Shown here in pieces: positions 1,779-41,466 of a stretch of 64,000 nt of DNA. How positions within the stretch are numbered: position 1 is the first letter of the stretch; every line of letters starts with the position of its first letter. Location: contig NZ_AP023247.1 of the NCBI RefSeq assembly GCF_016756535.1, forward strand, positions 372,001 to 436,000, in the 5' to 3' direction. The stretch is from Mesorhizobium sp. 131-2-1 (lineage in GTDB: Bacteria > Pseudomonadota > Alphaproteobacteria > Rhizobiales > Rhizobiaceae). The translations under genes were made by a program, and so were the position numbers. A model generated the notes under the pieces. The model was given only the letters and a program-made list of their open reading frames with translations, did not search any database and was not told where the DNA came from.

Positions 1779-3737
1779 TCAGTTCACCTGAAGCCGTGAC
1801 CTGGCCTGTCCCGGCAGAAACGGCTGGCCCCTGCCTTGCTTCAACTTCTGCAGCCCAAGCACCTTCGAAACCGGCCTGGGCACGCAATGTCCGCGCACCG
1901 TCATTTCGGTTGCCCGGCAGCCCGTGGTGATGATGGCATCCTTCACGCACGTCTTGCCGACCAGATGGTAGCCGCGTTTGCAGTCGATGATGATGGAGGG
2001 CTTGCGCACGCATTCGCCATTGATGCGCTGTTCGTCACGCCGGCATTTCCCCGCTATAACGGCATTCCTCACGCATTTCAGGCCAAGCTGATGATAGCCG
2101 GGCAAGCAGTGGATGCTGACGCCGATGCACTTGCCGTCGACCAGCTTCTCGGTGCTCTTGCATGCGGCCACCAAAGGCCTGTCGACACATCTGCCGCGCA
2201 ACAAGCTCTGGCTGGGCAGGCATTTGCGGCCGGGATCCACGACGACCGGCGGCAGGCGGGGCTTGCCGAAGTCGCGGCGCGTGCTCGACACCAGATCGTC
2301 GACCTTGGGCTCAGAGGTGCGCTTTATGCAGGTGAAATCCTCCGCATCCGTGTCGATGGTGGCGATGGATCCATTCTGCTTGATCTCCTGCAAGGTGCAC
2401 TGGATCGAGCGGGTTCTGGTGATGTTGAGATCGTGTGCGGCGCTGGCCTTGAACACGCCGCCTTCGTTGAAGGCGACCGCGGTCCCGGTGAAGAAGGCGC
2501 CGTTCGAGCAGCCGATCCGATAGTGCAACGCGCCGGGAGCATCGCGGCTCGCTTCGAACGCGACCCGGCCTTTGCGCGGGCAAAGTTTCCTTGATCCGGC
2601 GCTGTCGGAAACGGTCACTTCGCCTTGCCAATCGGCCTTGGCCGGCGGGTTGTCGGGATCGGCCTGCGGTCCGTCGGTGAAGCCTCCGCCGCCCGCGCCA
2701 GTGCAATGGACGGTGATGTCCTTCCAGCCATCGAAGGGCTCGAACGGATCGTTGCCGACGATCTCGGTCTTGTACTGGAAATAGGCGGTCGCCCCGACAT
2801 TCTCCCATTTCTCGTAAGTGGCGAAATAGCCGTTCTTGCCCGCGTCAAAGGACGCCCAGGCCTGCTTGAACTCCGACGTGATCGGCCCATTGTCCTTCTG
2901 CCGCCAGATGCGCATCGATACCGGCCCGGCCTTGTTCGTCTGCGCGCGGCTGGTCACCTTGAGCGCCGGGCAGACTGTTCCCGGTGTCGAGCCGGGCAGG
3001 TTCGAGCGGTAGGTGGTCAGGAACAGCTTGACGTTCTTTGTCTCGAACTCGCCGAAGTCGACGGCAATGTCTTGACCCTTCGGTTTGACAACGGGGTCGC
3101 ATACCACCTGAACGTCGAACGAACCGTGTTCGGCATAGTGCGATTCGTGGAGCGGATAGGGCCAGCTGCCGCCGGTCACCTCGCTGGCAGCATTGTGCAT
3201 GTCGAGCGCCTTGTCGGTCAGCGCCGAAAAGCTGGCGTGGAACGTGTGTGTGAACGAATAGGACTTCGTCGGTCCATCGGGCTGGAGGTGCTGGTTGCAC
3301 CGGGCGATAATCTGATCCCCATACGGCACCACGGCGATGCCCGTGTTCGAAGACAGCGCTATGATCGATGGATCGAAGGAGAAGTTCTCCTGGTGATCAT
3401 AGTCGCGGCTGACCGGCGATGCGCTCCAGATCGGCGGAAACGCCCCGCACTGGCCGGGCCTGCAAACGCCGAGGGATACGCCGACCTCCTGCACGTAACC
3501 TGGCCAGCGTGTGTCGATCTTCATATGGCCCCAGAACTGGACGGTGCCGCTTTTCAGCCCGTCCCATTTCTGTTTGTCGCTCGAGACGACGTGCAGTGTG
3601 GTGTTGACGCTCTGCGTGTCGAACGACATCGACTTGATGTTGGCCTGTTCGGCGAAAGCGGAGGTGCTGGTTAGTCCGGCTGCGAACAGGGCAACAGTCG
3701 CAACCGTATTGCGAAAGGCATAGCTGACTGAAGACAT
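1779..3737 (-). CDS. Secreted protein with six C-terminal Cys-pair repeats (unknown function)
   Basis: 652 residues. A typical Sec signal peptide (residues 1 to about 29, ending STSAFA) precedes an exported region of about 460 residues with scattered cysteine pairs and no family I recognise. From about residue 500 there are six short repeats of the form C-x(8-9)-G-x-C-V, for example [26 protein letters not shown] and [13 protein letters not shown], spaced roughly 20-27 residues apart; these probably form disulfide-stapled turns in the periplasm or outside the cell. The start is supported by AGGAG upstream of the ATG. The gene follows the 3866-7741 gene but is separated from it by a strong terminator, so it probably has its own promoter in the 128-nt gap. 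Both proteins end in Cys-rich repeats, which suggests a shared surface or adhesive role; that is inference only. Confidence 0.75.
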
Positions 3738-3814
3738 CTCTCTCTCCTGACGTGTTCCTTCAGCGATTGGTCGCCGCTCGCGGCATCAAGGTTCATGCGG
3801 CGATCCCAGCAACG

Positions 3815-10184: not shown

Positions 10185-11774
10185 ATGACCGGCAATCGCC
10201 TTGTTCTGCTGCTGGCGTCGATCGTTCTGGTCTCACCGGTATTGCCGTCGGCGGCCAAGACTCTGGTCTATTGCACCGAGGCCAGTCCCGACACGTTCGA
10301 TCCGGCGATTGCCTCCGGCACCCGCGATGCATCGGCGACCGCGCTCTACAACCGCATCGTCGAGTTTGAGCCCGGCACGACCAGGGTGCGGCCGGGCCTC
10401 GCCGAAAAATGGGAGGTTTCCGGCGACGGGCTGACCTACACCTTCCACCTGCGGCACGGCGTGAAATTCCACAGCATCGATGGCTTTACGCCGACGCGCG
10501 ACTTCAATGCCGACGATGTGCTGTTCACCTTCGACCGCCAAGCCAACGCCGAGAACCCGTTCCACAATTATGCCGGCCGCCAGTACATCTATTTCGACGG
10601 CATCGGCATGCCGGGTCTGGTCGCTGGCTGGCGCAAGCTCGACGACTACACTGTCGTCATGACGCTGAAGGCGCCGCACGCGCCGATGCTTGCCGACCTG
10701 GCGCTGGATTTCGCGTCGGTCGTTTCCCGGGAATATGCCGACAGGCTGCTGGCCGAGAAGCGGCCGCTGGATCTGGCGACACGGCCGGTCGGAACAGGTC
10801 CGTTCCAGCTTGTCGACTACCAGCAGGACGCGGTCATCCGCTACAAGGCCAATCCGGACTACTGGCGCGGCCGGCCGAAGATCGACGATCTTGTCTTTGC
10901 CGTCACCACCGACGCCAGCATCCGCATGGCAAAGCTGCGGGCCGGCGAGTGCGATGTGATGCCTTACCCCAACCCGGCCGACCTCGAGGCGATCAAGGCC
11001 GCGCCAGGCATCAGGCTGCTGCAGCAGGAAGGTCTCAACACCGGCTATCTCGCCTTCAACACCTTGCAGAAGCCGTTCGACGATCCGCGCGTCAGGAAGG
11101 CGATCGACATGGCCATCGACAAGAGGGCGATCGTCGACGTCGTCTTCCGCGGCACCGGCGAACTCGCCCGCAATCCGTTGCCGCCGACCTCATGGGCCTA
11201 TGACAGGACGGCCCCGGACGATGTCTACGATCCCGATGCCGCCAAGCGCGAGCTTGCCGCGGCCGGCGTTCACGATCTGCATATGAAGGTCTGGGCGATG
11301 CCCGTGCAGCGGCCCTACAACCCCAACGCCCGGCTGATGGCCGAGATGATCCAGTCGGACCTCGCCAGGATCGGCGTCGGCGTCGATATCGTCAGCTACG
11401 AATGGGCCGAGTACCTCAGCCGCTCGAAGGCGCGCGACCGCGACGGTGCCATGCTGTTCGGCTTCACCGGCGACAATGGCGATCCCGACAATTTCCTCTC
11501 GGTGCCGCTCGGCTGCGCGGGCGTAGGCACTACAAACCGTGCCAACTGGTGTTTTCCTGCCTTCGATGCGCTGCTCAAGCAGGCCGCCGCCATCGTCGAT
11601 CCGGCCGCCCGGACGAAACTCTATATCGAGGCGCAACAACTGTTCCGGCAGCAAACGCCTTGGGTGGTGATTGCGCATTCCGTCGTGTCGATCCCGATGC
11701 GCGAAAGGGTTCGAAACTATGTCATGGATCCTTTCGACCACCATGACTTCTCCGGCGTCGACATCCAGGACTGA
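10185..11774 (+). CDS. Peptide-type ABC transporter substrate-binding protein (SBP family 5, DppA-like)
   Basis: 529 residues. A Sec signal peptide (MTGNRLVLLLASIVLVSPVLPSAA) is followed by the family-5 binding-protein fold: TLVYCTEASPDTFDPA, GLAEKWEVSGDGLTYTFHLRHGVKFH (the family signature), RPVGTGPFQLVDY, and VRKAIDMAIDK. Cysteines at LGCAGVGTTNRANWCF resemble the pair found in DppA-type dipeptide/haem binders. The start is the ATG preceding the signal peptide; upstream codons in the same frame look non-coding. No permease or ATPase gene is next to it, so it would have to use a transporter encoded elsewhere. It is followed at 9 nt by an ATP-grasp-like gene. Confidence 0.9.
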   Translation: MTGNRLVLLLASIVLVSPVLPSAAKTLVYCTEASPDTFDPAIASGTRDASATALYNRIVEFEPGTTRVRPGLAEKWEVSGDGLTYTFHLRHGVKFHSIDGFTPTRDFNADDVLFTFDRQANAENPFHNYAGRQYIYFDGIGMPGLVAGWRKLDDYTVVMTLKAPHAPMLADLALDFASVVSREYADRLLAEKRPLDLATRPVGTGPFQLVDYQQDAVIRYKANPDYWRGRPKIDDLVFAVTTDASIRMAKLRAGECDVMPYPNPADLEAIKAAPGIRLLQQEGLNTGYLAFNTLQKPFDDPRVRKAIDMAIDKRAIVDVVFRGTGELARNPLPPTSWAYDRTAPDDVYDPDAAKRELAAAGVHDLHMKVWAMPVQRPYNPNARLMAEMIQSDLARIGVGVDIVSYEWAEYLSRSKARDRDGAMLFGFTGDNGDPDNFLSVPLGCAGVGTTNRANWCFPAFDALLKQAAAIVDPAARTKLYIEAQQLFRQQTPWVVIAHSVVSIPMRERVRNYVMDPFDHHDFSGVDIQD

Positions 11775-11783
11775 CCGCCGAGG

Positions 11784-12644
11784 ATGGCCGCGGACCTCGA
11801 CCTCTATGTGGAGAGCCTCGGCAATTTCGGTTCGGCCCGGGAATACTCGATCCAGTCGCTGCTGCCCTACGTCGAAGAGGCCGGGCTGAAGGTGCGCGTG
11901 CTCGACCGCCTGGCAAACGAGAGCCGGGCGCCGGCCGCTCTTATGCATGTCGACCTGACCGAGGTGCCGCAAGCCTATCGCCAGATCGACGATCTCTACC
12001 AGCGCACCCTCAATGGCCGCGCGCTGTCCATCCACCGGCACCTCTATTCGACGCTCAGGCTTGAGGCCGGCGACAGTCATCCCGGCCCGGTCGTCGTCAA
12101 GACCGTGCTCAACAGCCGGGGCCGCCCGGAGCTGCGCTGGCGGCAGTACAGCAATGGCTGGACGCGCATGGCACATGCGCTGCGCAAGATGGTCACGCCG
12201 GACTACAAGGAGCGTCTGTGCCCGCCCTACCGCGTCTACGCTAGCATCGCCGAGGTGCCGGCGGAGGTCTGGCGCGACGAAAGGCTGATGGTGGAAAAAT
12301 TCGCCTTCGCCAGCCTCGACCTGCCGATCGTCAAGCACCGCTACATGTTCCTGCTCGGGGCCGAGCTCAACATGCGGCAGGTCTACAACGACGTGCTGTG
12401 CGCCGGCGGCAAGATCGTCAGCAACGAAGTGGGAGGCGCGGTTCCGGATGAGGTCAGGGCAGTGCGCGAGAAGCTCAACCTCGATTTCGGCGCGATCGAC
12501 TATTTTGTCGTCGACGGCAAGGGCATCGTCGTCGACGCCAACAAGACGGTCGGTTCCAATCCGAACTGGCTGAAACGCAATTTGTTCCGGCAGGAATTCG
12601 ACCACCGCATGGCCGAAGCGCTGATCGCCTTCATTCGCGGCTGA
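11784..12644 (+). CDS. ATP-grasp-like protein (unknown substrate)
   Basis: 286 residues, cytosolic, no signal peptide. The C-terminal part (IDYFVVDGKGIVVDANKTVG, about residues 236-255) resembles the metal/ATP-binding strand of ATP-grasp enzymes, where Asp and Asn coordinate magnesium. The middle has VVVKTVLNSRGRPELR and a basic segment. I cannot name a family. The ATG follows the binding-protein stop by 9 nt with GAGG directly before it, so the two are probably co-transcribed. A role in ligating or modifying an imported amino acid or peptide is possible but only suggested by this neighbour. Confidence 0.7.
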   Translation: MAADLDLYVESLGNFGSAREYSIQSLLPYVEEAGLKVRVLDRLANESRAPAALMHVDLTEVPQAYRQIDDLYQRTLNGRALSIHRHLYSTLRLEAGDSHPGPVVVKTVLNSRGRPELRWRQYSNGWTRMAHALRKMVTPDYKERLCPPYRVYASIAEVPAEVWRDERLMVEKFAFASLDLPIVKHRYMFLLGAELNMRQVYNDVLCAGGKIVSNEVGGAVPDEVRAVREKLNLDFGAIDYFVVDGKGIVVDANKTVGSNPNWLKRNLFRQEFDHRMAEALIAFIRG

Positions 12645-12662
12645 GCAGAGAAAACCTGCTCA
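12642..12662. terminator. Shared hairpin at a convergent gene junction
   Basis: TGAGCAG (12642-12648) pairs with CTGCTCA (12656-12662) around a 7-nt loop. The two arms contain the stop codons of the converging genes. There is no T-run, so intrinsic termination is uncertain. Confidence 0.35.
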
Positions 12663-13601
12663 CCAGATCCATTCGCCCTTGCCTAGCGCCGACACGGCGT
12701 CGACGATGCGGGTAAAACTCGTCCGCGCCCGGCCGACCGTGTGCCTGGCCCTGAGATAGCCGTGGACGAGGCCCGGCTCCTCGAACCAGTAGGCCCGCCC
12801 GCCTGCGGCAAGCACCCGGTCGCGATAGGCTTCGCCGTCCGATGACAGCGGGTCGCACTCGGCGGTGATCAGCACGGTCGGCGGCAGGTAGGCGAAATCG
12901 GCATCGGCGAGCGGCGACAAGGTGATGTCACCGGTGCGATCCTCGCCGCCGGTGCGGATACCCATGTAGAAATCGAGATCGCGCACCGTCAGCATCGGCG
13001 CCTCTGCATGCGCGACATAGGACCCTTTCGAACGATCGCCGCCGAGGCCCGGATAGATCAAGACCTGGCCGAGCGGCTTTTTGCCATGGCCGCGCGTCGC
13101 ATGGCTGACAGCGGCGCAGAGATTGCCGCCGGCGCTGTCGCCGCAGAGCAGGACGGAGCGATCGTAAGTGGCGGCAGCCCATTCGAAGGCGGCCATGACA
13201 TCGTCGAAGGCCGCCGGGTGCCGGTGCTCCGGCGCCAGCCGGTAATCGACCGAGACCACCTCGAAGCCCGTGCGTGCGCACAGTTCGGCGCAGACATCGT
13301 CATGGCTGTCCAGCCCCCCGAGGATGAAGCCGCCGCCATGGACGTAGAGAACCATCGCGGCCCCATCCGGCTTCGAATTGCGGTAGATGCGGACCGGGAT
13401 GTCGCGCGCGGGCGCGGCGATAACGGTGGTCCTGACCGTCACACCCTCCGGATAGCCGGCAAAGAATTCGCGGCACATCCTGTCATAGATCGCGCGCTGC
13501 TCGGCAACGGTGTAGTCGATCGTGTCCGGCGGATAATAGGAGTTAGTCTTCTCGATGAAGGCCCAGGTCTCGGGGTCGATGAGCTTCTTGTAGTCGGTCA
13601 T
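12660..13601 (-). CDS. Alpha/beta hydrolase, hormone-sensitive lipase family esterase
   Basis: 313 residues, cytosolic. It has the HSL oxyanion motif HGGG (88-91), the nucleophile elbow GDSAGG (S156), and the likely acid D250 (ECDP) and base H280 (LVHGY). Members hydrolyse short acyl esters. It is the last gene of the carnitine operon, 17 nt after caiD, so an O-acylcarnitine esterase feeding carnitine into the pathway is a sensible inference; short-chain acylcarnitine hydrolases are known from Pseudomonas. Start at MTDYKKLID; the longer open frame upstream overlaps caiD and looks like a shadow. Confidence 0.88.
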   Translation of the reverse strand: MTDYKKLIDPETWAFIEKTNSYYPPDTIDYTVAEQRAIYDRMCREFFAGYPEGVTVRTTVIAAPARDIPVRIYRNSKPDGAAMVLYVHGGGFILGGLDSHDDVCAELCARTGFEVVSVDYRLAPEHRHPAAFDDVMAAFEWAAATYDRSVLLCGDSAGGNLCAAVSHATRGHGKKPLGQVLIYPGLGGDRSKGSYVAHAEAPMLTVRDLDFYMGIRTGGEDRTGDITLSPLADADFAYLPPTVLITAECDPLSSDGEAYRDRVLAAGGRAYWFEEPGLVHGYLRARHTVGRARTSFTRIVDAVSALGKGEWIW

Positions 13602-13618
13602 GGGATGCTGAAGGCGTC

Positions 13619-14401
13619 CTACCTGCCCTTCCACACCGGATCGCGCTTCTCGGCAAAGGCGCGAAAACCTTCCATATTGTCCTCGGAGCCGTAGAGGATA
13701 TCGACGGTGGGCAACTGCCTGCGGGTAACCTTGTTCATCGCGTCCTGGAAGGTGAGCGCCTCGGCGACGCGCGCGGTTTCCTTGATCGCGGCGAAGACCA
13801 GCGGCGGGCCGCTGGCGAGCAGCCGCGCGATCTCCCAGACGCGGTCCTCGAGCTTCTCCCGGGGCAGCACCTCGTTGACCAGGCCCCAGCGATGCGCTTC
13901 GGCAACATCCATCCAGCGGCCGGTGAGCAAAAGGTCCATGGCGACATGGTAGGGAATGCGCTTCGGCAACTTGATCGTCGCGGCGTCGGCAAGCGTGCCG
14001 GCGCGGATCTCGGGCAGCGCGAAGGAGGAATGGTCGGAGGCGTAGATCAGGTCGCAAGACAGCGCCAGCTCGAAGCCGCCGCCGACCGCCATGCCGTTGA
14101 CGCAGGCGATGACCGGCTTGTTGAGGTCGCGCAACTCCTGCAGCCCGGCGAAGCCGCCGACGCCATAGTCGCCGTCGACCGCGTCGCCGCCGGCCGCCGC
14201 CTTGAGGTCCCAGCCGGCGCAGAAGAACTTGTCGCCGGCGGTCTTGACGATAGCGACGCGCAGGTCAGGATCGTCGCGGAACGCCTTGAACGTCTCGCCC
14301 ATCAGCCGCGACGTCTTGAGGTCGATGGCGTTGGCCTTCGGCCGGTCGAGCGTGACCTCGAAGACGGCGCCCTCGCGGCGGGTGGTGATGACGTCAGCCA
14401 T
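13619..14401 (-). CDS. caiD: Carnitinyl-CoA dehydratase / crotonobetainyl-CoA hydratase
   Basis: 260 residues of the enoyl-CoA hydratase superfamily. Similarity to E. coli CaiD runs throughout: LDRPKANAID, FRDDPDLRVAI, CAGWDLKAAA, GGFAGL, GGGFELAL, and a C-terminus AFAEKRDPVWKGR that matches CaiD as I remember it. The two catalytic glutamates are E111 and E131, the same numbers as in E. coli. It reversibly hydrates crotonobetainyl-CoA to L-carnitinyl-CoA. In this aerobic, CdhA-containing context it most likely works in the hydration direction. The ATG overlaps the stop of the CoA ligase gene by 8 nt, indicating coupled translation. Confidence 0.92.
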   Translation of the reverse strand: MADVITTRREGAVFEVTLDRPKANAIDLKTSRLMGETFKAFRDDPDLRVAIVKTAGDKFFCAGWDLKAAAGGDAVDGDYGVGGFAGLQELRDLNKPVIACVNGMAVGGGFELALSCDLIYASDHSSFALPEIRAGTLADAATIKLPKRIPYHVAMDLLLTGRWMDVAEAHRWGLVNEVLPREKLEDRVWEIARLLASGPPLVFAAIKETARVAEALTFQDAMNKVTRRQLPTVDILYGSEDNMEGFRAFAEKRDPVWKGR

Positions 14402-35789: not shown

Positions 35790-36541
35790 CACATGAACCG
35801 CCAATCCGCGAGATCCTTGACCTCAAAGATCTTGTCGATCGCACACAGCGATGGGTCGGCCCGGCGCCGCTTCATCGATTTGTGGAGCGCGCGCATGAAC
35901 TCGCGACGGGGAATATCCGGCGCCTTGGTCATGTTGCCGGCGTGACGCCTGTAGTAGAGCCCCACCGTATCGGGCATGACGTAGTTCGGGCCGCTCTCGA
36001 AGGTGCGCAGCAGGTAGTCGGTGTCCTCGGCCTGGCTGAAATCGGTGTCGAAATCACCGATCCGATCGACAAGCCGGCGCGTGAATATTCCAGCCGACAG
36101 ATGAACGCCACGCACGGTCACGCAATGGCTGTCGGCCGCCGGCTCCAGTGTCTCGTCGTCCAGGTGGTCGGCCAGCGTCATCAGCGAATAGGCCAGGTCG
36201 AGACCGGGGTCGGTTTCGAAAAGCGCCAGATCGTCCTTGAAGCGACCGGCCGGCGAGATGTCGTCCGAATCGAGGAAGGAGACAAAGCCAGTCTCCGGCA
36301 GGAGCTGCCGGAGGCCGGCGTTGCGCGCCTTGGTGACGCCCATATTGGCCTGCTGGAAAAGGCGGATGCAGGATGCTTCGCTCATCATCGAGCGCACCAC
36401 CTCAACCGAGCCGTCGATCGAGCCGTCGTCGATGACGATGATGTCGAGATCGGCACCGTCGCGCTGCCTGAGCAGCGAGCGCAGCGCAGCGCCGACATAG
36501 GCCTCGCGGTTGTAGACCGGCATGATCACGCTCAGCTTCAT
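35789..36541 (-). CDS. GT2 family glycosyltransferase
   Basis: 250 residues: MKLSVIMPVYNREAYVGAALRSLL, VIDDGSIDGS, the metal-binding SFLDSDDISP, and the downstream AEDTDYLLRT that is typical of the acceptor/catalytic base region. Its ATG overlaps the stop of the kinase-like gene by 4 nt (ATGA). Second of two adjacent but quite different GT2 enzymes in the cluster, suggesting that two sugars or two positions are modified. Confidence 0.87.
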   Translation of the reverse strand: MKLSVIMPVYNREAYVGAALRSLLRQRDGADLDIIVIDDGSIDGSVEVVRSMMSEASCIRLFQQANMGVTKARNAGLRQLLPETGFVSFLDSDDISPAGRFKDDLALFETDPGLDLAYSLMTLADHLDDETLEPAADSHCVTVRGVHLSAGIFTRRLVDRIGDFDTDFSQAEDTDYLLRTFESGPNYVMPDTVGLYYRRHAGNMTKAPDIPRREFMRALHKSMKRRRADPSLCAIDKIFEVKDLADWRFM

Positions 36542-37644
36542 GCTGAGCCTCGCGTGAGAAACCCGGAAACCGTGGCGGCGATTTCCTCCGGCCGCGTCCC
36601 CAGCGCCAGACGATAGCATGGCAAGTGGCGGGTAAGGTCGCTGAAAAAGCGAAAGCCTCCCTCGCGCTCGCCAGGCATCTGCGCGATGCCGGACGGCGCC
36701 AACGCAATCATGGCGTCCTTGCGCGACAAGGGCATGACCGAGCTTGTCCCACCACCGCCGATATGTGGCACCACAAGCGCGACGATGTCCAGACTTGCAG
36801 GCAGCGGCCGGGGCGCGACGTCATCGATGTGGAACGGATGCTTGCCCTGCCAGTTCAGCGGACCATAGGACTTCAACCGCTGCCTGAGCCCGAGCCGTTC
36901 GAAACCCTCGGGATCCTGCTTGAGGGTGGAAAACAGCGGATAGGCCCTTATCCCCTCATCGGTCCTGTCGATCAGCACATAGTCGTCGCCGACGCTGTCC
37001 AGGCCGTTGAGCAGGCCGGCGACAACGGTTCCCGATTTTCCCGCTCCGCCGGCGCCGGCAAGCAGGATGCCCTTGCCGCCGATGCCCAGCGTGCCGGCAT
37101 GCGCAAGCCGCATGCCGCGCGCCGCATAGTCCCAGTGCAGGAAGGCGCGCAACGGCGCGCCAGGTTCCCATGGCGGGAAGCCGTCGGCGGAGCGCATCAG
37201 TTGCGCGCCGACGCGGCGCTCGGGGTCGTAGACCTGCCAGAAGTCGAGGTCGTGGAAGTAGGAGCCGCGCAGCCCGGCATCGGCAAGCCGGGAGGCAAAG
37301 GCGTGCGGGGCGAATTGCGCCTCGCCCCATTTCGCCGGAGCGGCGATGCCGTCGATGCCCGGATGGGCAATGAAGATGCGGCACTGACCCGATGCCTGCC
37401 GATCGCCGCCGGCCGGAACAAGGCCACGGCCGATGGCATCCGCGAAGGGACCGGGCGTGAGATGCACAGCCATGTCCAAGCGGGGCAAACGGACGTCCCG
37501 CGTGACGGAATAGCCGGCGGCCGCACCCTCGGCCATGGCCAGAACCTGGCGGGCATAGTCCGGCAAGGTTTCCAGGGTGATATGCGACATGGCCTGTTCC
37601 CGCGTACCGTCGCGCATGCGATCGGCCGCCCCGGGGCGTCTCAC
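36538..37644 (-). CDS. HprK-related kinase-like protein
   Basis: 368 residues. Residues about 180-330 resemble HPr kinase/phosphorylase: RLAHAGTLGIGGKGILLAGAGGAGKSGT (split here as HAGTLG 182-187 and Walker A GAGGAGKSGT 197-206), then SVGDDYVLI (217-225). The N-terminal 170 residues are specific to this group. There is no PTS gene nearby, so phosphorylation of HPr is unlikely; related proteins next to PqqD-like genes modify peptides, as known for lasso-peptide kinases. The GTG start overlaps the stop of the PqqD gene (GTGA); an ATG at 37590 (MSHITLETL) is an alternative. Confidence 0.82.
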   Translation of the reverse strand: MRRPGAADRMRDGTREQAMSHITLETLPDYARQVLAMAEGAAAGYSVTRDVRLPRLDMAVHLTPGPFADAIGRGLVPAGGDRQASGQCRIFIAHPGIDGIAAPAKWGEAQFAPHAFASRLADAGLRGSYFHDLDFWQVYDPERRVGAQLMRSADGFPPWEPGAPLRAFLHWDYAARGMRLAHAGTLGIGGKGILLAGAGGAGKSGTVVAGLLNGLDSVGDDYVLIDRTDEGIRAYPLFSTLKQDPEGFERLGLRQRLKSYGPLNWQGKHPFHIDDVAPRPLPASLDIVALVVPHIGGGGTSSVMPLSRKDAMIALAPSGIAQMPGEREGGFRFFSDLTRHLPCYRLALGTRPEEIAATVSGFLTRGSA

Positions 37645-38072
37645 AATGCCTGCTTGACCGCGGGCCAGCCCAAGGGTTCCTCGACCTCATGGATCGGATC
37701 GACCATGATGAGATCTGCAAGATCGTCGTGGACATCGACCTTCAGGGGCTCGCGAGACGCTGCAAGCTCGGCCAGCAGCCCGCCCGGCAGCGGCTGCGCC
37801 GGCGCATCCGGGGCCGCCGCCAGCAGGCCGAAATCGATGAGTTGCGCGATGAAGCTTTCGAGCTCGGCCAATCCTATCGTCGCCGTTCCCGCGGACAGTC
37901 CGACCAGGGCCGGGGCCGCTACGCCCGACGACAGCGCCTGCCAGATCCGGCTGCCCGTATCGGAGAAACCGAAATATTTGCCGCTCGCGAGGTCGAGCAC
38001 GACGGCTTCGCCGTCGAAGGATTCAAAAACGATATCCTTGTTCGCAACAGCGTAGACATCGGCTGCCCGCAT
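37641..38072 (-). CDS. PqqD-like peptide-chaperone protein with conserved-looking tail
   Basis: 143 residues. Residues 1 to about 88 have the PqqD/RRE fold (VFESFDGEAVVLDLASGKYFGFSDTGSRIWQAL, then ELESFIAQLIDFGLL), a winged-helix module that grips leader peptides for modifying enzymes. Beyond it is a 55-residue extension ending DDLADLIMVDPIHEVEEP and GWPAVKQAL, unrelated to PqqD. First gene of a five-gene unit in which every junction overlaps. No pqqA, B, C or E is present, so this is not PQQ synthesis. The extension could be an embedded substrate peptide or a docking segment; I cannot tell which. A weak SD precedes the ATG. Confidence 0.82.
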   Translation of the reverse strand: MRAADVYAVANKDIVFESFDGEAVVLDLASGKYFGFSDTGSRIWQALSSGVAAPALVGLSAGTATIGLAELESFIAQLIDFGLLAAAPDAPAQPLPGGLLAELAASREPLKVDVHDDLADLIMVDPIHEVEEPLGWPAVKQAL

Positions 38073-38217: not shown

Positions 38218-39327
38218 TCAGGCCTCGATTTCCAGCGCCGTCATCGGCCTCGAGCAACAGGCGAGGATGAAGCCGTCGTCGATCTCGTGATCGAGGATGC
38301 CGCCATTGTGGCTCATCTCGACCTCGCCTGAAACCTTCTTCACCTTGCAGGTGCCGCACAGGCCGAATTCGCAGGCCGCCGGTATCCTGACGCCGGAAGC
38401 GCGCGCCGTCTGCAGCACGGTCTGCCCGGCGATGCAGTCGGCATCGACATCGGAAAGCGAAAAACGAACCGGCGTCGCGGCCTCGACGGGTATCTCGATG
38501 CCGCCGTCGGCCGGCAGCGCGAACGGCGCCGATACTTCCTCCACCGCAGGCGCGGCAAAGCTTTCCTGGTGGTATTTGGCCATGTCGAAGCCGGCGGCCT
38601 CCAGCATCTGCCGCACGGCGCGCATAAACGGGTCGGGGCCGCAGCAGAAGATTTCCCGCTCGCGGAAGTCAGGTGCCAGAAGCGGAAGCCTTATGGCGTC
38701 GATGCGACCCATATGGCCGAACCAGCCTTCGCGGCTGGAGCGTTCCTCGATCATGAAGCCGAGCGACAGGCCGGGCATGCGGCTGCCCAGCAATTCCAGT
38801 TCCTTGCGGAAGATGATCTCTTCCGCCCTGCGCGCGCAGTTGACGAAGCCGACATCGGTCCATGGCGCGCAGTCGTTCAGCCAGCGCAGCATCGACATCA
38901 TCGGCGTGACCCCGGAGCCGGCCGAGATGAACAGGTATTTGGCCGCCGGATGGCTGTGCAGCGAGAAATCGCCGGCCGGGCCGTAGGCCTTCACATGGGC
39001 GCCGGGCTTGAGATTGTCGAACATCCAGCGCGTGCCGATGCTGCCGGCCTGCGCCTTCACCGTCACCGCGATCGAGAACGGCCGCGACGGCGACGACGAC
39101 AGCGTGTAGGTGCGCATCAGCGGACCGTCGGCGGTCGGCAGTTCCAGCGTCACGAACTGGCCCGGCTTGTAGCGGAACCAGGTCTGGTTGTCGGAGCGGA
39201 AGGTGAAGGTCTTGACGTCCGGCGCCTCGTCGCTGACGCCGATCACCTCCAGCACCTGCAGCCGATCGTTCCACGGCGCCATCTCGTCGAGGTGGCGATA
39301 GAGGCCGAGATCGGTCATCGCGTTCAT
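38218..39327 (-). CDS. gbcB: Glycine betaine monooxygenase reductase subunit
   Basis: 369 residues. An FAD domain (FRYKPGQFVTLELP, RTYTLSSSPS) and an NAD domain (FISAGSGVTPMMSMLRWL, IFCCGPDPFMRAV) are followed by a C-terminal plant-type 2Fe-2S domain with ACEFGLCGTCKV and a final CC pair near residue 358. It passes electrons from NADH to the Rieske oxygenase GbcA. Start at MNAMTDLGLY with AAGGGG directly before it. It lies 68 nt downstream of gbcA on the same strand and is presumably co-transcribed. Confidence 0.92.
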   Translation of the reverse strand: MNAMTDLGLYRHLDEMAPWNDRLQVLEVIGVSDEAPDVKTFTFRSDNQTWFRYKPGQFVTLELPTADGPLMRTYTLSSSPSRPFSIAVTVKAQAGSIGTRWMFDNLKPGAHVKAYGPAGDFSLHSHPAAKYLFISAGSGVTPMMSMLRWLNDCAPWTDVGFVNCARRAEEIIFRKELELLGSRMPGLSLGFMIEERSSREGWFGHMGRIDAIRLPLLAPDFREREIFCCGPDPFMRAVRQMLEAAGFDMAKYHQESFAAPAVEEVSAPFALPADGGIEIPVEAATPVRFSLSDVDADCIAGQTVLQTARASGVRIPAACEFGLCGTCKVKKVSGEVEMSHNGGILDHEIDDGFILACCSRPMTALEIEA

Positions 39328-39395: not shown

Positions 39396-40643
39396 CTAGG
39401 CGACGCTGCGCAGCGCCGGTCGACCACCTTCAGCAAGGCGCGGGCCGATGAAGGCGGCGTACCATTCGACGAACTGGATGACGCCGCCCTCGTGCAGCTC
39501 CGAATAGGGGCCGGGCTCATAGGCCGGCGACAGGATGCCGTGCGCGTTTTCCTCGACGATGCGGCGATCCTGGTCGTTGGTCTCGGTCCAGACATGGGTG
39601 AGTTCGGCGAGATCGTAGTCGACGCCTTCCACCGCATCCTTGTGCACCAGCCATTTCGTCGTCACCGCGGTTTCGGTGGCGCTGATCGGCAGCACGCGGA
39701 AGGTGACGGCGTGATCGATCAGGATATGGTTCCAGGTCGTCGGATAGTGGTAATGCATCAGCGTGCCGATGCGGTCCGCGGCGACACTGTCGGAGAGGTT
39801 CTTCCTCACCGCGCGCTTGCCGTTCATCGTGTAGCTGATGGCATCGCGCAGCAGCGGGGCGCGGGTGGCGCGGTATTGCCCGGCGGGGTCGATGCGGAAC
39901 TTGCTCGGCAGGCCGGCCGCCTCGCATTTCGCCCAGTGCGCCAGCATCTCGGGATCGCTGTCGGCGCCCTGCACGCCCGTCACGGTCGGGGCTTCAGGGA
40001 AGGTCTTGCAGAGCTCCGGATGATTGCCGGCGCAGTGGTAGCACTCGCGGTTGTTCTCCCAGACCAGCTTCCAGTTGCCCTTCTCGACAATGGTCGATTC
40101 GAAGGCGACTTTCGCCTCGCTCAACCTGTGCGGCAGGAGATAGGGTTCGATCATGGCGCGCATCGGCGCGAAATCGGCCGGCTCCTTCGCCAGGCAGATG
40201 AAGATGTAGCCGCCGACGCTTTCGCAGGCGACCGGCTTCAGGCCGAACTGGCTCTTGTCGAAACCGTCCGCCATCTGGCGGGCGAACAGCAGCCTGCCGT
40301 CGAGCTCGTAGGTCCATTGATGGTAGGGGCAGACGAGCTTCGCCGCCGTGCCCTTCTCGGCGTTGCAGACGCGGCTGCCGCGATGGCGGCAGGAATTGTG
40401 GAAGGCATTGACCCTGCCCTGCTGGTCGCGGACAAGGACCACCGGATAATCGCCGACCTGCGCGGTGATGTAGCTGCCCGGCTTCGGCAATTCGCAATCG
40501 TGGCCGATGAACAGCCAGTCGCGGTACCAGATCAACTCCATGTCGAGCTTGAAGTAATCCGGGTCGGTGTAGAAAGGCTGTTCGAGCGAAAAGCCCGGCC
40601 TGCGGTTGTGCAGGTGCCTCAGCATGTCGTTGCGCGCATCCAT
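39396..40643 (-). CDS. gbcA: Glycine betaine monooxygenase, Rieske oxygenase subunit
   Basis: Demethylates glycine betaine to dimethylglycine, releasing formaldehyde. 415 residues. Rieske ligands are C85, H87, C105 and H108 (CRHRGSRVC and CPYHQW); the mononuclear iron site includes H203 and H208 (ECYHCAGNHPE). Blocks such as NCRHRGSR-like, KWLVHKDAVEGVDYD, NDQDRRIVEEN and PAYEPGPYSELHEGGV closely match Pseudomonas GbcA as I remember it. Related Rieske enzymes use stachydrine or carnitine, so substrate identity is probable rather than certain. The long leader contains a cobalamin riboswitch (40773-40952), which is unexpected for this enzyme. Confidence 0.9.
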   Translation of the reverse strand: MDARNDMLRHLHNRRPGFSLEQPFYTDPDYFKLDMELIWYRDWLFIGHDCELPKPGSYITAQVGDYPVVLVRDQQGRVNAFHNSCRHRGSRVCNAEKGTAAKLVCPYHQWTYELDGRLLFARQMADGFDKSQFGLKPVACESVGGYIFICLAKEPADFAPMRAMIEPYLLPHRLSEAKVAFESTIVEKGNWKLVWENNRECYHCAGNHPELCKTFPEAPTVTGVQGADSDPEMLAHWAKCEAAGLPSKFRIDPAGQYRATRAPLLRDAISYTMNGKRAVRKNLSDSVAADRIGTLMHYHYPTTWNHILIDHAVTFRVLPISATETAVTTKWLVHKDAVEGVDYDLAELTHVWTETNDQDRRIVEENAHGILSPAYEPGPYSELHEGGVIQFVEWYAAFIGPRLAEGGRPALRSVA

Positions 40644-40772
40644 GTCCTGTCCCTCGCGTCGGTCGCATCAAGGACTGAACTGGTGGTGATGGAGAGGAAC
40701 GGCGGCCGCCGGCAGGGCCGGGCACGCGCCATCCGCCTCTTGACCGCCCACCGCGATCAGTCGAGTCAAAGA

Positions 40773-40952
40773 ATCTCGGGCTGGTTTCCGGGCTTTGGAG
40801 TGCCCTGACGGGCGGTCGCGGCACCTTCCCAGGCTAGATGGCCCAGTGGTCTCCCGTCGCGACTTGAACTCCACCACCGTTGCGGGGGCAGCGCCGGAAT
40901 TCGACCGGCTTCCCAATTCTCCGTCCCGTCGTCACGGGGCGGCACCTGAGAT
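40773..40952 (-). promoter_or_regulatory. Cobalamin (B12) riboswitch upstream of gbcA
   Basis: Read on the minus strand, the leader contains the conserved core GGGAAGCCGGTCGAATTCCG, then GCGCTGCCCCCGCAACGG (40878-40915), and the 3' B12-box AAGCCCGGAAACCAGCCCGAG (40776-40796, here split by one base from its consensus AGCC-GGA-ACC-GCC). ATCTC at 40948-40952 pairs with GAGAT at 40773-40777 to close helix P1. Its 3' end is 130 nt before the gbcA ATG. Cobalamin riboswitches usually repress on binding B12; the downstream leader has GC-rich pairing potential but no T-run, so control of translation is likelier than termination. Confidence 0.88.
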
Positions 40953-41466
40953 GACCTGATCTAATCACGACGGCCGGCGAACCGTCGGTACGAAAACGAC
41001 ATCGCATCGATGCGGGCGCGACACGGCTTTCGGCTTCGCGGCACTCCAGCGCACCGAATTTCCGTGCTCGGGGCAATCCGAATCGCGCACTGGAAACGCC
41101 CTCGTATCGACCTCCAGCCGGCTCTGAACTGGTTACCAGTATCGAAAAGTGACTATTAGGAGATTCTAAAATCGAACCGAACGGTTCGTTTCTGTTGACA
41201 ATGCGTGCAAGACGCTGTGAACGCAGATCTTCCAAATCGTCAATTGGCGCGATGGCCCATTCGCCTAAGCTACGGATATTGTTCCATAAAAGCTCACGTG
41301 TAGGAGGCCTTGGCACAATTTCAAGATGCAGAGTCATGGGCCAGGCGCAACAACTTCGTGATTGGAAAGCGGGTATGGGCTCTCCCACATCGGGGCTGTC
41401 CGAACGACGCGATTTCCTCCCAAGACACGCCGCTAGACGGACGGAAAAAATACTGGAGTACCAAAA
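40953..41466. other. Intergenic region between gbcA leader and the small secreted genes
   Basis: 514 bases with no gene I can support. It must hold the gbcA promoter (leftward) and that of the small-protein cluster (rightward). A perfect palindrome CGAACCG-AA-CGGTTCG (41173-41188) is followed by TTGACA (41195-41200) on the plus strand, but no good -10 follows at the right distance. Codon use in the remaining open frames looks random. Confidence 0.5.
41173..41188. promoter_or_regulatory. Perfect palindrome, candidate TetR-type operator
   Basis: CGAACCG and CGGTTCG are separated by AA, a spacing and symmetry common for TetR-family sites. It lies 7 nt upstream of TTGACA. No TetR gene is in the window, so the binding protein is unknown. 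Confidence 0.4.

Follow-up and report, generated by a model that had tools for sequence, protein, structure and literature searches.

The window, a stretch of 64,000 nucleotides from Mesorhizobium sp. 131-2-1, carries on its minus strand a gene pair composed of a GbcA/Stc2-type Rieske oxygenase of 415 amino acids (39396..40643; PF00355 and PF00848) and a GbcB-type ferredoxin/NAD(P)H reductase of 369 amino acids (38218..39327; PF00111, PF00175 and PF00970). The Rieske and Ring_hydroxyl_A domains and the adjacent GbcB-type reductase are those of a GbcA/Stc2-type Rieske demethylase. GbcA (NF058607) and GbcB (NF058606) are the best NCBIfam matches of the two proteins, at 520.1 bits (cut-off 670) and 363.8 bits (cut-off 500). 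The name gbcA, which the earlier note had given to the oxygenase gene, is plausible from genomic context in some relatives, but the window protein stays under the NCBIfam threshold for that name, and five proteins of its clade (L130, L131, L132, L373 and L401) likewise score 501-535 bits. Among solved structures the Rieske protein is closest to 3N0Q (548 bits) and 3VCA/4QUP (545 bits). Across 395 residues 3VCA is identical to a pSymA protein of S. meliloti 1021, and we take this protein and 3VCA/4QUP to be the stachydrine demethylase Stc2. Since the S. meliloti protein scores 495 bits against the GbcA model, and the window protein 520, the model cannot tell one from the other. These close scores, the missed cut-off and the riboswitch-bearing members of the Stc2 clade described below leave the substrate unsettled by sequence; the operon would encode an N-demethylase that needs O2 but not B12 and acts on a quaternary amine, most likely glycine betaine, and the support for glycine betaine comes from genomic context.

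After the operon, at 36538-38072 on the minus strand, there are PqqD-like and weakly HprK-like proteins, with ORFs that look glycosyltransferase-like by eye beyond them. Similar ORFs are likewise situated 3′ of the operon in M. ciceri (L343).

The cobalamin riboswitch and a candidate expression platform

The operon is preceded by a cobalamin riboswitch. When the entire window was compared by cmscan with 4227 Rfam families, the sole match above gathering was RF00174 at 40762..40964 on the minus strand (gathering score 31.5; 99.2 bits, E 1.4e-23), and this match spans model positions 1-189 of 189 without truncation. The earlier note had placed a cobalamin riboswitch at 40773-40952, which falls inside the match, and the significant covariance-model score bears out that assignment; core, 3′ B12 box and closing helix are in the order claimed. 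The elements follow one another as GGGAAG/CCGGT, the L5 core GCTGCCCCCGCAAC (40879..40892, minus strand), CCACTGG (40843..40849, minus strand; presumably the J6/3 region), GGGAAGG, the 3′ B12 box AGCCCGGAAACCAGCC (40779..40794, minus strand) and the closing helix. The L5 core is invariant or nearly so in two alignments (A1 and A2), in which CCACTGG and the B12 box can also be recognized as sequence motifs. Among 17 ortholog leaders, 17 of the 44 pairs in a structure predicted from the same 17-sequence alignment have undergone compensatory change, meaning that both sides are altered and the pair is kept in at least one sequence. Farther 5′, a block TGTCGCG..CGCAT..GATGTCG.TTTC (40985..41023, minus strand) is conserved in most genus-level leaders and partially kept in two others (L041 and L042), the leaders in a 25-leader alignment otherwise diverging on this side of the aptamer; it is a candidate promoter or operator.

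Between the aptamer and the Rieske start codon (40643) there are 118 nt, and several conserved segments in this interval may form the expression platform. The leaders have GACTGATCGCGGTGGGCGGTC in common 3′ of the B12 box, with one or two positions variable, and a candidate P13/L13 hairpin, GATCGC-GGTGG-GCGGTC (40742..40758, minus strand), is conserved in 25 leaders. The loop of this hairpin is largely complementary to L5, and the two could touch. Ahead of the start codon the leaders share CACCACCAGTTCAGTCCTT...GAGGACAGGACATGG with some variation. Here, conservation and fold prediction point to GTTCAGTCCT ... GAGG(G)ACAGGAC (40644..40680, minus strand) as a candidate hairpin in which AGTCCT would pair with AGGAC and hide the ribosome-binding site, and the pairing of GACTGA..GGTGG with CCACC..TCAGTC is a candidate alternative that would free it. 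The ribosome-binding site was predicted to be largely paired in eight of nine folded leaders whether P13 was forced or not. Since a clear expected change upon forcing P13 was seen in L041 only, the predicted OFF response to B12 draws on the riboswitch class and on isozyme logic.

Distribution of the riboswitch and context of the Rieske genes

Of 61 genomes surveyed (the window's own and 60 relatives), 30 have the Rieske protein at E 1e-60 or better. RF00174 is present upstream of all 24 close orthologs outside the own genome (78-95% identity; L020-L042 and, partial, L044), a short way 5′ of the Rieske start codon in each, and it is absent from the five distant Rieske loci that were scanned (35-56% identity; L043 and L045-L048). 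The arrangement is thus a constant of the close orthologs in Mesorhizobium, which is the check that the earlier note had proposed, and its claim that B12 gates the gene pair, through a presumed response of the RNA to the ligand, is well supported by this conservation.

Beyond the genus the riboswitch is widespread yet not universal. Among titled genome records, where the nearest Rieske loci belong to one MAG at 95% identity and several Mesorhizobium records at 92-94%, it is found at 59 of the best 80 orthologous loci, including those of Mesorhizobium, Aminobacter, Pseudaminobacter, Aquibium, Inquilinus, Shinella, Labrys, Sinorhizobium fredii, Phyllobacterium, Pannonibacter, Ciceribacter and some Rhizobium. 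A survey of the order covered 397 genomes, 88 of which have a Rieske match at E 1e-90; 15 of 20 loci from this survey (L064-L083) carry the riboswitch, and two of these 15 (L068 and L081) bear a second, divergent one. Six more positives were encountered at 56-62% identity (L085-L089 and L095), as well as one 69% copy (L090). No riboswitch was detected in the 20 loci scanned as L104-L123, and eleven loci, L071-L073, L075 and L079 among them, gave no cobalamin match at a lax threshold. Plasmid-borne loci, 10 of 13 of which were scored for RF00174, include positives on S. meliloti Ak57 pSymB and in Sinorhizobium K101, Shinella PSBB067, Cereibacter azotoformans and Gemmobacter fulvus; RF00174 is absent from those of Paracoccus versutus, P. 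ferrooxidans, Agrobacterium 1D1609 and Rhizobium CB3090 and from the S. meliloti AK57 pSymA copy. With a covariance model built from the leaders, Phaeobacter gallaeciensis is positive at 140 bits and Rhizobium CB3090 scores 78 bits.

In a tree of 73 representatives the window protein belongs to a clade of 44 rows, and the sister clade of 21 rows includes Stc2. Neither Stc2 nor its nearest rows have the riboswitch, which in the sister clade is borne by Cereibacter, Gemmobacter, Phaeobacter and two further genomes (G080 and G286), among others; some branches are long, and gains and losses of the riboswitch are indistinguishable on this tree.

The neighbourhoods of riboswitch-bearing operons contain genes of B12 and betaine metabolism in several genera. 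In Aminobacter carboxidus, cobF and metH (1268 aa) are located directly 5′ of the operon, and in Inquilinus cobF is 3′ of it. In Labrys, the operon is flanked on one side by a TonB B12-receptor-like gene (under the NCBIfam cut-off) with a riboswitch of its own, and is followed by fdhA, cobF and a GbdR-type regulator. By tblastn, the 59 riboswitch-positive loci of the titled set exceed the 21 riboswitch-less ones in nearby cobF (4 vs 0), metH (3 vs 0), metE (2 vs 0), btuB (1 vs 0), fdhA (2 vs 0) and GbdR (2 vs 0). That so few loci have betaine-pathway genes nearby counts against the isozyme switch proposed below. The reductase gene gbcB is near all 59 riboswitch-positive loci and only seven of the 21 riboswitch-less ones, Sphingomonas included; likewise, the reductase gene is not adjacent in eight of 16 riboswitch-less loci that have enough sequence and come from genomes without the methyltransferase MtgB discussed below (for example L071-L073, L075 and L401). 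A few riboswitch-less orthologs are set in apparent betaine pathways, namely those of Paracoccus (a GlxA-type regulator, electron transfer flavoproteins, FolD, PurU, FdhA and a BCCT transporter), Agrobacterium 1D1609 (FdhA and betaine ABC transporters) and Sphingomonas paucimobilis (PurU- and FolD-like ORFs, by eye, and a large flavoprotein-like ORF whose C-terminus is of the GcvT type); for the remaining riboswitch-less loci of the 80, tblastn detected none of the probed betaine genes except gbcB. A short ORF with a trimethylamine methyltransferase family annotation lies about 7 kb 3′ of the riboswitch-less Agrobacterium 1D1609 operon (L132, 17683-17970).

Co-occurrence of the riboswitch with an MttB-family methyltransferase

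The genome that contains the window also has seven MttB-family genes. One of them, here called MtgB (locus L053), matches PF06253 (MTTB) with 770 bits and adjoins a gene for an MtgC-type corrinoid protein; a Bmt/MtgE gene nearby scores above the NCBIfam cut-off for betaine-homocysteine methyltransferase. It is named MtgB for its Pfam family and its neighbours, and activity on glycine betaine is putative: the sole NCBIfam match, TIGR02369, is under its cut-off, and the MtgC-type neighbour reaches 208 and 174 bits against the two NCBIfam MtgC models, under cut-offs of 370 and 310. Two other assignments at this locus were discarded, as the frame at 11687-13819, considered as RamA, has von Willebrand domains, and that at 2891-3745, considered as a tetrahydrofolate methyltransferase, is a formyltransferase. 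The genome thus holds a putative B12-dependent counterpart alongside the riboswitch-controlled Rieske gene. No riboswitch was found 5′ of the seven MttB-family genes in flanks of about 1.5 kb (L006-L012), and metE (L049) and cobW are each under other cobalamin riboswitches. At one of the seven loci (L011, C1:123888-128378), RF02510, the mttB pyrrolysine insertion sequence, matches at 2530-2629 with 56.5 bits, and the MttB-family frame is open.

MtgB at 89% identity or more is present in 36 of 37 same-genus genomes (G007 is the exception). It was also found in 34 of 79 genomes, 75 of which come from the order set outside the genus, in 67 of 80 genomes of the family representing 45 genera, and in 24 of 100 Rhizobium-type genomes. 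All 100 of the latter have the Rieske gene. By a four-motif search, every one of the 24 Rhizobium-type genomes with MtgB has the riboswitch, compared with 0 of 75 testable genomes without it; one further MtgB-less genome was left out because its contig begins 41 nt upstream. In one of the MtgB-containing Rhizobium-type genomes (G485) the riboswitch is degenerate, scoring 78 bits with the covariance model.

For loci at 66% identity or more, the combined Rfam and motif searches (Rfam in the first sets, motif search in the later ones) placed the riboswitch at 125 of 130 loci from MtgB-containing genomes and at 0 of 90 from genomes without MtgB, a tally of loci in which one genome (G183) contributes two and from which nine riboswitch-positive and three riboswitch-negative loci without MtgB status and one untestable locus are left out. 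Three motif-search calls changed under the covariance model, for which 17 ortholog leaders had been aligned. Two loci became positive, one with a single C missing in L5 (L308) and one degenerate (L309), and an MtgB-less locus (L322) scored 72.5 bits with both CCACTGG and the B12 box mutated. After correction the riboswitch is present at 127 of 130 loci with MtgB and at 1 of 90 without, the one being decayed; counting genomes instead of loci gives 126 of 129 and 1 of 90. In this set only L274, L275 and L295 have MtgB and no riboswitch.

Remnants of the riboswitch persist in some lineages that lack MtgB. In five such Rhizobium genomes (L163-L166 and L170) the aptamer core is gone, and the outer parts and the B12 box are retained, exactly or with one or two changes. 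These fossils were identified by position and flanks, as their scores with the covariance model are no more than 15-21 bits (E 0.03-0.4). Below 66% identity the riboswitch is found at 5 of 24 loci with MtgB and 0 of 26 without, with six more loci lacking MtgB status; the other 19 MtgB-containing loci have more distant Rieske copies and no riboswitch.

Shared ancestry reduces the number of independent comparisons. In a FastTree phylogeny of 289 proteins, there are seven independent pairs, all on supported branches, in which one member has the riboswitch and the other does not, and with the corrected calls MtgB differs in the same direction in 6.4 of them on average and never in the opposite one (sign test, median p 0.031, range 0.0156-0.0625). 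Before correction the average was 5.8 (p from 0.0156 to 0.125), and a smaller first set had given three differing pairs, all in the same direction (p 0.25). The association is strong in counts and, because there are few contrasts (seven), modest in independent events. That the relatives surveyed keep the riboswitch almost exclusively in genomes with this putatively B12-dependent enzyme, whose task is probably the same, suggests that these bacteria use it to choose between two betaine routes.

A proposed B12 switch between two routes of betaine demethylation

The explanation we consider likely is an isozyme switch in the manner of metE/metH, whereby a B12-repressed Rieske operon would back up an MtgB-MtgC betaine route. 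With ample adenosylcobalamin, or another corrinoid of that kind, the riboswitch would shut off the gbcA-gbcB-type operon, probably by allowing a hairpin to hide the ribosome-binding site. The corrinoid route, consisting of MtgB and the MtgC-type protein and handing the betaine methyl group to tetrahydrofolate, would then be in use and no formaldehyde would be released. When B12 is short the corrinoid route would stall, and the Rieske route would be made as its stand-in. Should a lineage lose MtgB, the brake would become useless and the riboswitch would be expected to decay. The earlier note had remarked that cobalamin riboswitches control enzymes with B12-independent alternatives; this pointed in the right direction but has to be turned round, as the Rieske gene looks like the alternative itself.

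A variant of the same switch logic would have a different quaternary amine, for instance proline betaine or carnitine, as the substrate, with a parallel MttB-family enzyme as the partner of the Rieske operon. The top solved structures, which include that of Stc2, would fit this variant, as would the riboswitch-bearing Phaeobacter and Cereibacter proteins in the Stc2 sister clade, the seven MttB-family genes of the own genome and the missed GbcA cut-off. It is nevertheless unlikely, as Stc2 and its nearest rows are devoid of the riboswitch and some same-clade relatives are encoded beside BCCT or betaine ABC transporters, fdhA or a GbdR-type regulator.

The earlier note had suggested that betaine demethylation supports methionine or C1 metabolism under limiting activity of the B12-dependent methionine synthase. 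PMC12478193 describes MtgBCDE of related bacteria as a link from the demethylation of betaine to the synthesis of methionine, and metH is beside the gene in Aminobacter and near 3 of 59 riboswitch loci. However, the same paper gives dimethylglycine and formaldehyde as the products of gbcAB-type demethylation. Moreover, the own genome has a separate cobalamin riboswitch on metE, and in the surveys, which covered MtgB, it is this MttB-family gene that the Rieske riboswitch tracks; the idea is therefore not needed, and we regard it as improbable.

A similarly low probability is given to the co-occurrence being a by-product, with the lineages that lost MtgB having lost B12 synthesis or use and all their B12 riboswitches having decayed in consequence. 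Rhizobia are B12 makers, which counts against this, and 12 Rhizobium plasmid records, themselves without MtgB assignment, match the own metE riboswitch. That the riboswitch was left over from a different, lost gene, as the earlier note had alternatively proposed, has next to no probability and was rejected, since its position and sequence are conserved in orthologs of several genera and a relic would not be carried by all 24 close orthologs and 59 of the best 80 titled-record loci.

Returning to the isozyme switch, its nearest precedent is the metE cobalamin riboswitch, where an RF00174 aptamer also precedes the B12-free member of an enzyme pair; unlike metE, the Rieske enzyme is catabolic and O2-dependent, and its fold and chemistry are unrelated to those of the proposed partner. 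The operon resembles GbcAB of Pseudomonas and Chromohalobacter in combining a Rieske oxygenase with a reductase, and some relatives of the window gene are encoded next to fdhA, a GbdR-type regulator or betaine transporters. It differs from GbcAB in that both proteins score under the NCBIfam GbcA and GbcB cut-offs, in its riboswitch control, and in that the genomes also hold an MttB-family methyltransferase. Stc2 (3VCA/4QUP) is about 59% identical to the window protein; it belongs to the sister clade and, with its nearest rows, is without the riboswitch that other members of that clade possess. The corrinoid betaine methyltransferase MtgBCDE has the same proposed substrate, yet it is B12-dependent and would be a partner, not a relative, of the Rieske operon.

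According to PMC12478193, MtgBCDE demethylates glycine betaine aerobically and mtgBCDE is colocalized in S. meliloti; the word riboswitch occurs there once, in a reference title. PMC3766115 sorts the cobalamin regulons into four categories, and the known riboswitch targets comprise genes for making and taking up B12, for transporting cobalt and for isozymes of B12-dependent enzymes; its main text mentions neither betaine nor a dioxygenase, monooxygenase or Rieske protein. In other articles, the metE/metH strategy is put to the test (PMC9600662), metE of Mesorhizobium symbiosis islands is reported to bear a cobalamin riboswitch (PMC7643969), and three cobalamin riboswitches are listed for S. 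meliloti 2011 (PMC2573895). A search of the main texts in open-licence PubMed Central returned no report of a cobalamin riboswitch on gbcA or a Rieske demethylase gene.

The riboswitch class is known and the Rieske demethylase is a new target, in what is most likely a new pair of B12-dependent and B12-independent enzymes. With a little less assurance than for the isozyme switch itself, we think it rather probable that a single catabolic step can be taken by two unrelated chemistries, that of a corrinoid methyltransferase of the anaerobe type and that of a Rieske demethylase dependent on O2, that a B12 riboswitch decides between them across many alphaproteobacterial genera and in two Rieske clades, and that this riboswitch is dropped when the corrinoid partner is lost. 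If so, B12 status, and not the substrate alone, would set the fate of the betaine methyl group (methyl-tetrahydrofolate or formaldehyde) in soil and symbiotic bacteria, and the Rieske demethylase would be a catabolic addition to the isozyme targets of cobalamin riboswitches. The aerobic corrinoid route recently described (PMC12478193) would be tied to the older GbcAB route, which suggests why some bacteria might hold both. The decay of the switch upon partner loss would provide a ready genetic test.

Other cobalamin riboswitches were encountered during the surveys. In the own genome a fifth RF00174 match (C1:6366734-6366857; L005 and L050) covers model positions 46-168 only, and the ORFs 3′ of it include a short piece of a PLP-dependent enzyme (PF00291), by eye a broken ACC deaminase gene. 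The divergent riboswitch of L081 (813-1017, minus strand; 136 bits) precedes a LysR-type gene that resembles metR by eye, and that of L068 (3253-3450, plus strand) precedes a TonB-dependent B12-receptor-like gene and is back to back with the Rieske riboswitch. At six loci (L348, L355, L357, L358, L362 and L386) there are more matches to cobalamin riboswitches at distances of up to about 6 kb from the Rieske gene, and in L355 and L358 a relative of metE is near the Rieske gene too.
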